Below are positions 31,940 to 34,389 of a stretch of DNA of 64,000 nt, piece by piece. The notes under the pieces were generated by a model. That model was not told the origin of the DNA. It worked only from the letters and a program-made list of their open reading frames with translations, and made no database searches. A program made the translations under genes and the position numbers. Each line of letters begins with the position of its first letter. Position 1 is the first letter of the stretch. Source of the stretch: Sulfurospirillum arcachonense DSM 9755 (GTDB taxonomy: Bacteria; Campylobacterota; Campylobacteria; Campylobacterales; Sulfurospirillaceae); NCBI RefSeq assembly GCF_000597725.1, contig NZ_JFBL01000005.1, positions 62,001 through 126,000 on the forward strand, read 5' to 3'.

Positions 31940-33382
31940 ATGATAAATGAGAATGTTGATCTGCTGTGTGAGCAGTTAGATAAGGAGTTGTGTAAAAGAG
32001 GGCTATCAAGAAGAGATGCTTTAAAATTAGCCGGTGTTGGTACAGCCTCTTTTTTATTAAACCCATCGGAGGCAAGTGCAGCTACAAAAGCTGTAGCATC
32101 TGATGTGAAAGGAAAAATTGTTATTGTTGGTGGTGGAGCAGCGGGGTGTTCAATAGCTTCACTATTAGTAAAAAAACTAAGTAATCCAAATATAACTATA
32201 ATTGAGCCAAATGCAACTAGTGTGAGTTATCAACCAGGCCAAACTTTAATAGGTGCTGGTGTTTGGCAAAAAGAAGATATTCTTGGGCAAAGCCAAGATT
32301 TTTTTCCTAGTGAAGCAAAATGGATGCAAGATTCCGTGATAGAATTTGATCCAGATAAAAATAGAGTTATAACTGCTCAAAATGGTGAAGTAAAGTATGA
32401 CTTTTTAGTAGTTGCTACAGGATTACAATTAAATTATGACAAGATTGATGGACTAAGCCGTGACATAATAGGAAGTAATGGGATAGGTTCTGTTTATTTT
32501 GCCGATGGTGCAGCAAAAACTTGGCCACTTATGCAAAAGTTTGTTTCAGAAGCAAAAAGTGGTAAAAAAGTTGAAGGTGTCTTTACTCATCCAAATACTC
32601 CAATTAAGTGTGGTGGTGCTCCTAAAAAAATCATGTATTTAACAAATGCTCGATTAGTAGAAGCAAAAGCAAGAGACAATGCAACATTGACTTTTTATCC
32701 TAATGGTGGGAAAATGTTTGGTGTTCCAGAGTATCATGAAGCTATTGTAAAACAGTTTGAAGCTCGTGATATGAAATGGCACTATAAGCATAATTTAGTA
32801 GCAGTTGATCCAGGTAAGAAAATAGCTACATTTGATCACAGTTATCTTGTAAAAGGTGAATGGGATCCAGACTTAGAAGAGTTTGACATGATTCCTCAAG
32901 TAAAACAAGTAAAAGTTCCATTTGATTTTATGCATGTAACACCTCCTATGAGTGCCCCTGATGCTGTTAAAAAATCTCCTTTAGCATGGCAAAGAGGAAG
33001 TGCAAGTAAAGGTGGTTGGGTTGAACTTAAAAAAGAGACTCTTCAACATACAAGATATGCAAATGTTTTTGGTTTAGGAGATGTTGCTGGTATTCCTATG
33101 GGAAAAACTGGTGGGTCAGTAAGAAAACAATATACAGTTGCTGCACAAAATCTTGTAGATGTCATGTCTGGAAAGGCTCCAACACAAAAATATGGAGGCT
33201 ATACTGTTTGCCCTTTGATTACAGATATTGGTACGGTTATGCTTGCTGAGTTTGATTGGAGTAAGAAACCTACACCATCATTTCCTCTTGATCCTACAAA
33301 AGAGCGTTGGATTTGGTGGATATTGAAAGTTTATATGCTGAAGCCTATGTATTTTTATGGTATGCTAAAAGGTAGAGCATAG
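31940..33382 (+). CDS. sqr: Tat-exported sulfide:quinone reductase-like flavoprotein, type II-like
   Basis: The N-terminus carries a twin-arginine signal (SRRDALKLAGVG, R24-R25) after an unusually long 22-residue leader, with a cleavage region near SAATK. The FAD fold begins IVIVGGGAAGC. The cysteine motif KCGGAPKKIMYL (near 222) resembles the type II SQR motif KCAGAPQK, and a second redox Cys is in TVCPLIT (near 424). The aromatic-rich C-terminus (WIWWILKVYMLKPMYFYG) looks like an SQR membrane-contact helix. The expected reaction is oxidation of sulfide to sulfur or persulfide. The cytochrome gene downstream suggests an alternative electron acceptor. FccB-like sulfide dehydrogenase is the other option. 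Confidence 0.83.
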   Translation: MINENVDLLCEQLDKELCKRGLSRRDALKLAGVGTASFLLNPSEASAATKAVASDVKGKIVIVGGGAAGCSIASLLVKKLSNPNITIIEPNATSVSYQPGQTLIGAGVWQKEDILGQSQDFFPSEAKWMQDSVIEFDPDKNRVITAQNGEVKYDFLVVATGLQLNYDKIDGLSRDIIGSNGIGSVYFADGAAKTWPLMQKFVSEAKSGKKVEGVFTHPNTPIKCGGAPKKIMYLTNARLVEAKARDNATLTFYPNGGKMFGVPEYHEAIVKQFEARDMKWHYKHNLVAVDPGKKIATFDHSYLVKGEWDPDLEEFDMIPQVKQVKVPFDFMHVTPPMSAPDAVKKSPLAWQRGSASKGGWVELKKETLQHTRYANVFGLGDVAGIPMGKTGGSVRKQYTVAAQNLVDVMSGKAPTQKYGGYTVCPLITDIGTVMLAEFDWSKKPTPSFPLDPTKERWIWWILKVYMLKPMYFYGMLKGRA

Positions 33383-33411
33383 TCGATAATGAACTTAAAA
33401 GGAGTTATAAA

Positions 33412-34080
33412 ATGATAAGAAAATTAGTTTATTTAATCATATCTTTAAGCGCCATTATCTCTCTAGCTCAGGCTAAGCAATATAGTGTAGCAGAAATTTA
33501 TGATAAAATGTGTTCAAAGTGTCATGGTTTAAAAGCAGAAGGAATTCCTGAAAAAAAGGCTCCAGCATTAAATAACATGACCCAAAATGAGTTAGCTTAT
33601 GAGCTTTTTGATTTAGTAGCAAATGGTTCACAATCTTCGGGAAGTAACAGTGAAGTTATGGCACATAATCAAAAGCAAATTATGAAAAAAGGGATGACAT
33701 ATCACCCTGATGATATGGCTTTATACATTTCTTCTACGTATGGTATAAAAAGTTCAAAGCCAGATGTTTCTTCTGTTAACCATAATGGTATAAAAACATA
33801 TAGTGTTTCTGAAATATATAAAAGAATGTGTTCAAAATGTCATGGAATGAATGCTGAAGGTAATCCAGAAAAACATGCTCCAGCAATTAATGATATGAGT
33901 AAAAGTGAACTAGAAATGGAGTTGTATAGTCTACAATCTGATGGATTTCAGTCTTCAGGTAGTAGCAATGAAATAATGACTCATAATCAAAAGAAAATAG
34001 AAGATAAAGGAATGCTCTATCATCCTGAAGATATGGCAACTTACATTTATTTTCATTTTAATAAAAAAGCTAAAAAATAG
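33412..34080 (+). CDS. Dihaem c-type cytochrome with duplicated domains
   Basis: A signal peptide (MIRKLVYLIISLSAIISLAQA) precedes two homologous cytochrome c units of about 105 residues. Haem sites are CSKCHG at 34-38 and at 140-144. Each unit also repeats KGM(T/L)YHP(D/E)DMA, offering a distal methionine ligand, and a SSGSxxEVM or SSGSSNEIM loop. The periplasmic protein should accept electrons. The gene follows the flavoprotein gene by 29 nt with SD AAAGGAG, so the pair resembles a flavocytochrome c sulfide dehydrogenase made of separate subunits. The partnership is inferred. Confidence 0.9.
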   Translation: MIRKLVYLIISLSAIISLAQAKQYSVAEIYDKMCSKCHGLKAEGIPEKKAPALNNMTQNELAYELFDLVANGSQSSGSNSEVMAHNQKQIMKKGMTYHPDDMALYISSTYGIKSSKPDVSSVNHNGIKTYSVSEIYKRMCSKCHGMNAEGNPEKHAPAINDMSKSELEMELYSLQSDGFQSSGSSNEIMTHNQKKIEDKGMLYHPEDMATYIYFHFNKKAKK

Positions 34081-34092
34081 CTTATTATTAAC

Positions 34093-34125
34093 AAGGGGAA
34101 GAGAGTTTCTTCCCCTTTTATTTGG
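34093..34125 (+). terminator. Terminator after the sqr-cytochrome pair
   Basis: AAGGGGAAGA (34093-34102) and TCTTCCCCTT (34108-34117) form a 10-bp stem with a 5-nt loop, followed by TTATTT. This is one of the strongest terminators in the window. Confidence 0.85.
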
Positions 34126-34155: not shown

Positions 34156-34389
34156 ATGACAAAAATAGGTAAAGAAATAGTGGTGTTTGTAGGATTGTTT
34201 CTATTTTTAGCTCTTGGTATGCATATGAAACAATGGATTTCTCATCCTATTGAACACATCGAACATCTTAGCCAAAGTCAATTTGGACTTTTTCATCCTC
34301 TATATTTTACGTTTGGATTATATATAATCCTTTATATAATTAGGAAAATATTGAGTTTTCTAAGAGGATTATTTGCATTAAAAAGCTAA
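34156..34389 (+). CDS. Small two-helix membrane protein (77 aa)
   Basis: Residues 7-23 (EIVVFVGLFLFLALGMH) and about 49-68 (YFTFGLYIILYIIRKILSFL) are hydrophobic helices. They are joined by a His-rich periplasmic-type loop: WISHPIEHIEHLSQSQFG. No family is recognised. It has a promoter, an SD-like AGGATATGG and good codon texture, so it is likely real. The 3' end overlaps the convergent pcm by 4 nt. The three histidines in the loop could bind metal, but this is speculative. Confidence 0.7.
   Translation: MTKIGKEIVVFVGLFLFLALGMHMKQWISHPIEHIEHLSQSQFGLFHPLYFTFGLYIILYIIRKILSFLRGLFALKS

Follow-up and report, generated by a model that had tools for sequence, protein, structure and literature searches.

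Background

Type II sulfide:quinone reductases (SQRs), including the human enzyme, are usually thought to face the mitochondrial matrix or the cytoplasm. An exported type II branch would need a sulfur acceptor and a route to the quinone pool of its own. Han and Perner 2015 (PMC4584964) report that every type II SQR tabulated there, from Sulfurimonas and from other Epsilonproteobacteria alike, bears a twin-arginine (Tat) motif. PMC6382920 states, with reference to Han and Perner 2016 and Shen 2016, that SQR activity has been demonstrated for bacterial type II enzymes; it also describes FAD oxidoreductases of Thioalkalivibrio as a sister clade of type II SQR. In flavocytochrome c sulfide dehydrogenase (FCSD; FccAB, PDB 1fcd and 3vrd) an exported flavoprotein is paired with a c-type cytochrome, as at the locus described here. 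An FCSD gene appears in a Sulfurimonas-family genome bin in the accessible part of PMC7565565, whereas excerpts of PMC4584964 describe Sulfurimonas genomes without FCC.

Results

Layout of the locus

The locus is part of the window (the whole stretch of 64,000 nucleotides analysed here), and the campylobacterotal genome that carries it measures 2.66 Mb and belongs to the Sulfurospirillum group. The SQR, used as query, led to two named relatives, Sulfurospirillum sp. UBA12182 (79%) and BB15 (86%). Both the SQR and cytochrome reading frames lie exactly where a sequence-only reading of the window had placed them, on the plus strand, and every sequence feature named in that reading is present: the KCGGAPKK site, the C-terminal segment, the Tat signal with its extended leader and the duplicated cytochrome (Table 1). 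The two genes look like one unit, since 29 bases separate them and a terminator-like stem-loop with a T tail follows the cytochrome; AGGAG precedes the cytochrome start. A promoter scan returned 7 sites against 14.8 expected by chance and is therefore not informative. A BLAST search of the genome at E up to 1e-3, in which all 8 candidates were scored, gave no second match of the SQR kind; the genome also yields 19 matches to Pyr_redox_2, and the ORFs around the three that were inspected included none that was SQR-like. The 77-aa membrane protein encoded beyond the stem-loop was absent from the sequence-only reading.

Table 1. Features of the SQR locus (window coordinates) and of related loci (coordinates within each locus)
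Feature	Position	Strand	Basis or remark
SQR, type II sulfide:quinone reductase, 480 aa, Tat leader	31940..33382	+	ORF; human SQOR E 3e-83; tree; motifs
Extended leader and twin-arginine signal LSRRDALKL	31940..32080	+	AxA cleavage site likely at about residue 47 (by eye)
Cys224 of KCGGAPKK	32609..32611	+	aligns with human KCAGAPQK; invariant in 5 sequences of alignment A3
Cys424 of TVCPLIT	33209..33211	+	aligns with human TSCPLVT; invariant in 5 sequences of alignment A3
C-terminal amphipathic membrane/quinone segment	33302..33379	+	aligns with human SQOR C-terminus
SQR-linked dihaem cytochrome c, 222 aa	33412..34080	+	cleavable signal peptide (by eye)
Haem domain 1	33472..33741	+	CSKCH; distal Met candidate in EVMAHN
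Haem domain 2	33793..34059	+	CSKCH; distal Met candidate in EIMTHN
Stem-loop resembling an intrinsic terminator, at the end of the SQR-cytochrome pair	34093..34117	+	11-pair, T tail; fold z -3.07
Two-helix membrane protein, 77 aa, possible accessory	34156..34389	+	beyond terminator
DUF5368 loci	L137 4837-5199; also L144, L147, L148, L153, L136		behind Tat-type SQR match
Cytochrome b561/dihaem-c protein	L111 1406-2533; L057 6064-7194		
Tll0287-like one-haem proteins	L057 4485-5060; L155 3348-3938; L156 3372-3938; also L058		Pfam; L058 by eye
Protein of 398 aa with three rhodanese stretches	L072 1548-2741		signal-like start

Family and catalytic features of the SQR

Judged by its sequence, the flavoprotein is a type II SQR. 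Among PDB chains (phmmer) human SQOR scored 284 bits (residues 59-478), FccB 62 bits (E 5e-16) and the type I SQR of A. aeolicus an E value of 1.5e-7, with the remaining type I chains weaker, so the label "type II-like" given earlier was correct. In BLASTP the window protein is 35-40% identical to the type II references, those of Tat type included, and 24-29% identical to three unassigned reference proteins (L140, L141 and L152). Identity to the type I protein is 23%, and the short alignments with FccB give 22-24%. Around the first cysteine two relatives read KCGGAQ (L083, L084), and around the second some read CPI or CPF. The predicted SQR structure (window with L033-L036) had a mean pLDDT of 37.7, too low to be of use.

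The C-terminal stretch ERWIWWILKVYMLKPMYFYGMLKG pairs with the C-terminus of human SQOR in the phmmer alignment. This segment is present in all 20 cytochrome-adjacent SQR rows (one locus counted twice) and in 47 of the 48 others, the exception being interrupted by unread bases. Its equal retention with and without a cytochrome argues against the quinone having been replaced. Given the conserved cysteines, the FAD core and the C-terminal segment, quinone reduction is the probable default activity of the enzyme.

The tree comprised 85 rows, 67 campylobacterotal and 18 reference sequences, the duplicate locus L106 and the ORF of L090 being left out. The references were type II proteins, one type I protein (L142), two FccB proteins and L140, L141 and L152, with types IV-VI unsampled. 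The campylobacterotal SQRs group with type II proteins from human, staphylococci, Cupriavidus and Alphaproteobacteria (support 89/91 for this 82-row group and 83/81 for the campylobacterotal group). FccB and type I stand apart, and their branches are very long, with 6.8 and 5.2 changes per column; the branching order at several deep forks is uncertain, and long branches were flagged. L140, L141 and L152 fall inside the 82-row group, beside cytosolic type II references. The NCBIfam type III model scored the staphylococcal type II protein between L140 and L141, all under its cut-off, and does not discriminate the types.

The sequence-only reading had suggested a class intermediate between SQR and FCSD. 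A similarity of layout does exist, since both FccB controls begin with a Tat-like sequence (by pattern in L151, by eye in L150) and a gene for a c-type cytochrome immediately precedes each FccB gene. Nevertheless, neither FCSD_central (PF21706) nor FCSD-flav_bind (PF09242) was found in the window protein (Pfam, E up to 1), nor in a Sulfurospirillum-family SQR (L111) or a Paracoccus SQR, whereas both domains match 2 of 2 FccB controls (L150 and L151, each adjoining sox genes). In the phylogeny that had been proposed as a check, here the 85-row tree with types IV-VI unsampled, the window protein sits with the type II SQRs, its nearest relatives, and far from FccB. The cytochrome shows no match to FccA, and its duplication is restricted to a few lineages. 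On the PDB matches, the tree and the missing domains we reject the intermediate class, and an evolutionary intermediate is highly improbable.

Tat signal

In the window protein a 22-residue leader precedes the twin-arginine motif LSRRDALKL. The NCBIfam model TAT_signal_seq matched at 16.9 bits, barely above its cut-off of 16.7, and TatC, the sole Tat component checked, is encoded in the genome. A twin-arginine motif is present in 67 of 67 distinct campylobacterotal SQRs inspected, 66 by pattern and that of L081, which reads DRRTALK, by eye (68 ORFs were listed, 67 of them distinct, and 67 rows were positive by pattern). A Tat leader is the rule for the SQRs of this phylum. This part was already known, since the excerpts of Han and Perner 2015 had reported the motif, and the Tat signal is not the oddity for which it had been taken.

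The cytochrome family and its linkage to SQR

The two CXXCH domains of the window cytochrome are 59% identical to each other. The family motif, from the 18 sequences of alignment A2, is Y-x3-C-x2-CHG ... M-x-HN ... KG-x2-Y ... M, and its consensus holds no conserved cysteine besides the CXXCH pair. A sequence search of the PDB (E up to 1) gave 18 matches with no FccA chain among them, which speaks against an FccA origin of the cytochrome.

Among the first loci examined, those of Sulfurospirillaceae and some from other families had a c-type cytochrome behind the SQR. In the class as a whole the cytochrome family occurs in 36 of 397 genomes (E up to 1e-12), and all 36 are SQR-positive against 16.6 expected, 183 of the 397 being SQR-positive overall. 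The hypergeometric co-occurrence values ignore the relatedness of genomes, and the SQR cut at E 1e-30 may admit some non-type-II relatives to the 183. The cytochrome lies 75-687 bases downstream of the SQR on the same strand in 31 of the 36; in four of these 31 the gap is about 680 bases, and in both such cases fetched (L057, L058) a gene for a Tll0287-like haem protein fills it. The pairing is thus specific to SQR in one direction. In the other, 147 of the 183 SQR-positive genomes gave no cytochrome match at E 1e-12, which indicates that the SQR does not need the cytochrome. Absences in these class searches are not firm, because the best candidates of each genome were the ones scored (for the b561/dihaem-c protein of the window genome, the best 4 of 14). 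An optional branch for the SQR fits this pattern, since the SQR often occurs without the cytochrome and, among the 397 genomes, the cytochrome was not found without SQR.

Cytochromes with two haem domains, 47-65% identical to each other, occur in the window, its genus and neighbouring genera. In this lineage the first and second domains form separate groups, showing that the duplication predates the split of this lineage. L057 and L058 also have two domains, 65-71% identical. All ten one-haem SQR-linked cytochromes inspected carry a lipobox and should therefore be membrane-held, while the dihaem forms have an ordinary signal peptide (a lipobox pattern marked in L057 proved false by eye). The cytochrome of L034 is split over two ORFs, and L110 likewise is a split ORF.

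The cytochrome lies away from the SQR in five of the 36 genomes. Three of these copies (L154, L155, L157) adjoin an NrfD-type gene that is accompanied by genes of 4Fe-4S and molybdopterin type; Pfam supports NrfD in all three and the other two types in L157 only. In L155 and L156 the distant cytochrome adjoins a Tll0287-like haem protein, and the neighbourhood in L158 held no telling genes. In L065 the SQR is followed by the cytochrome, a cytochrome b and a molybdopterin oxidoreductase. These neighbours raise the alternative that the cytochrome serves sulfur handling or the Psr-like side, sharing an operon with SQR through their common periplasmic sulfide or polysulfide and exchanging no electrons with it. 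The Psr-like genes beside three of five distant copies and the Tll0287-like protein beside two would fit such a role, but the position close behind SQR in 31 of 36 genomes and the lack of a further conserved cysteine in the A2 consensus do not, and we regard it as unlikely.

A membrane cytochrome b561/dihaem-c protein

In Sulfurospirillum-family loci, and likewise in L065, L086 and L127, the gene behind the one-haem cytochrome encodes a protein of 373-403 aa; in L057 and L058 such a protein follows the dihaem form. In the L111 copy Pfam recognises a cytochrome b561 domain (PF01292) joined to a dihaem c domain (PF09626). Close members (E below 1e-159, our own cut at a gap in the list) occur in 27 of 397 genomes, all 27 of which have the cytochrome family. 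The window genome gave no close member among the best 4 of 14 candidates, the distant b-type match on C15 (E 2e-39) being without the dihaem part.

With these genes at hand, the exported SQR might instead reduce its own cytochrome c directly, as an FCSD-like pair built from a type II SQR, the cytochrome in relatives passing electrons through the b561/dihaem-c protein to the menaquinone pool. The order SQR, cytochrome, cytochrome b561/dihaem-c in several loci, the presence of SQR in every cytochrome-bearing genome and the lipobox of the one-haem cytochromes are all consistent with such a route. Against it, the C-terminal segment of the SQR is kept regardless of the cytochrome, most SQR-positive genomes gave no cytochrome match, five of the 36 cytochromes are placed away from SQR, and cytochrome-bearing SQRs are scattered in the tree instead of forming one clade. 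Direct transfer is therefore possible but doubtful.

The 77-aa two-helix membrane protein

For the 77-aa protein a Pfam search at E up to 1 found nothing, and no NCBIfam model scored close to its cut-off. His23, His47-Pro48 and Tyr56 are invariant in 38 aligned members, although two later members deviate at the HP position (TYP in L122, HT in L135); relatives of the gene include those of L057, L072 and L105. Its charges (+1 at the N end, -1 in the loop, +4 at the C end) suggest that both ends are inside, which would put both histidines near the periplasmic face.

The protein occurs in 110 of 397 class genomes and in 29 of 44 family genomes, and 106 of the 110 are SQR-positive against 50.7 expected. 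A strict partnership with SQR is weakened by the four genomes without SQR (G043, G230, G339 and G395, the last a fragment) and further by the position of the window gene beyond the terminator-like hairpin. In G043 (L120) the gene retains its position between recJ and pcm homologues, although SQR and cytochrome are missing. Across 20 loci fetched where the gene lies away from SQR or the genome is SQR-less, the neighbours were a fusA homologue in six, a nifU-like gene in six and an mrp homologue in two (these neighbours, like those in L120, were identified by eye). In L122, L126 and L128 it also adjoins an NrfD-type gene, supported by Pfam for L122 only.

Four loci (L064, L067, L068 and L070) carry two SQR genes in tandem, separated by the small membrane gene, and their second SQR copies form a clade with L061 and L063. 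In L072 the SQR and small gene are followed by the rhodanese protein of Table 1, a possible periplasmic sulfur acceptor. One genome of the window's family (G041) has an additional SQR (L109) that groups with SQRs of another family, and either transfer or contamination would account for it, the assembly being listed at 6% contamination.

Tat-type SQRs outside Campylobacterota

Among the 60 plasmid matches listed, four relatives could be aligned over the leader (Azospirillum, two Paracoccus and Salinivibrio). These four and three more alphaproteobacterial SQRs have Tat motifs. An annotated DUF5368 gene follows five of these SQRs, and that of Azospirillum was identified via Pfam; the Salinivibrio SQR is followed by a 113-aa protein without a Pfam family. 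DUF5368 matched 21 records in PLSDB, and in 20 of them, which include several strains of one species, it starts 12-19 bases beyond the end of a same-strand match to the Paracoccus SQR. In view of this spacing behind a Tat-type SQR, DUF5368 is probably an SQR partner. The 21st record, from Neorhizobium petrolearium, has a partial DUF5368 match and no SQR among the 60 matches listed. No DUF5368 is annotated near three type II SQRs that lack the Tat motif, those of Deinococcus, Staphylococcus and Pantoea. The proposal that DUF5368 and the 77-aa protein are homologous is rejected (hhalign probability 0.3%).

We tentatively consider that exported type II SQRs might form a separate respiratory class which, in contrast to cytosolic type II SQRs, relies on a dedicated membrane partner that differs by phylum. 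In Campylobacterota the partner would be the two-helix protein, whose two almost always conserved histidines on the periplasmic side may be a haem b or quinone site; in Alphaproteobacteria it would be DUF5368; and in some Campylobacterota cytochrome c and the b561/dihaem-c protein would add a sulfide-to-cytochrome branch coupled to polysulfide reductase. The 85-row tree neither shows nor excludes a single clade of exported SQRs.

Discussion

A working model

Families, motifs, gene order and co-occurrence are what we observe; from here on we infer location, electron acceptor and the role of the cytochrome. Our preferred reading, with a probability of about 60%, is that the Tat-exported type II SQR reduces menaquinone, the quinone of this group, from the periplasm, with the dihaem cytochrome as an auxiliary periplasmic carrier. 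The SQR would fold with FAD in the cytoplasm, be exported by the Tat route and then use its C-terminal amphipathic segment to stay attached to the periplasmic side of the inner membrane. Sulfide would be oxidised by the Cys224/Cys424 pair, and electrons would pass from the FAD to menaquinone. The cytochrome, from a small family apparently tied to SQR and to periplasmic polysulfide-reductase-like genes, may connect periplasmic reductases to the quinone or SQR level. Its form in Sulfurospirillum and in several further relatives is a one-haem lipoprotein adjoining the membrane cytochrome b561/dihaem-c protein; in the window's lineage it is duplicated and has an ordinary signal peptide and no such neighbour.

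Concrete candidates for the wiring of an exported SQR are the cytochrome family, found in SQR-bearing genomes only among the 397 searched, the b561/dihaem-c protein and two small membrane families including DUF5368. Because these gene partners supply candidates, the wiring is testable in culturable Sulfurospirillum and Paracoccus.

Comparison with known systems

Human SQOR (6oi5, 6mo6; the sequence compared is a fragment without the N-terminus) and staphylococcal Sqr resemble the window SQR in the FAD core, both cysteines and the C-terminal segment, at 37-39% identity. The staphylococcal protein is leaderless, and its gene lies with cstA/cstB and without a cytochrome, unlike the window gene. 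The SQRs of Sulfurimonas and other Epsilonproteobacteria in the excerpts of PMC4584964 are, like that of the window, type II proteins with a Tat motif, but those excerpts mention no cytochrome gene or small membrane partner. The Thioalkalivibrio oxidoreductases of PMC6382920 are comparable in that they are placed beside type II SQR.

The Tat-type SQRs of Paracoccus, Cereibacter and Azospirillum resemble the window protein, at 36-40% identity, in the Tat motif, the first cysteine site (CAGAPLK in them) and the C-terminal segment, and are called FAD/NAD(P)-binding oxidoreductases where annotated. As in the window, a small membrane protein adjoins them, but it is DUF5368, whose profile did not match that of the 77-aa protein of Campylobacterota. 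No cytochrome was among the annotated genes of the Paracoccus and Cereibacter stretches, the Azospirillum record being unannotated.

FccAB differs from the window in its FCSD_central and FCSD-flav_bind domains, and the window differs from FccAB in the SQR-type C-terminal segment of its flavoprotein and in a cytochrome without an FccA match. The open-licence PMC literature retrieved, including the accessible parts of PMC4584964, PMC4674564, PMC6382920 and PMC7565565, does not mention the SQR-cytochrome operon or the small partners, and yielded no paper on DUF5368. The cytochrome and the small membrane partners are therefore apparently undescribed, and they accompany an SQR that is itself ordinary for its phylum.
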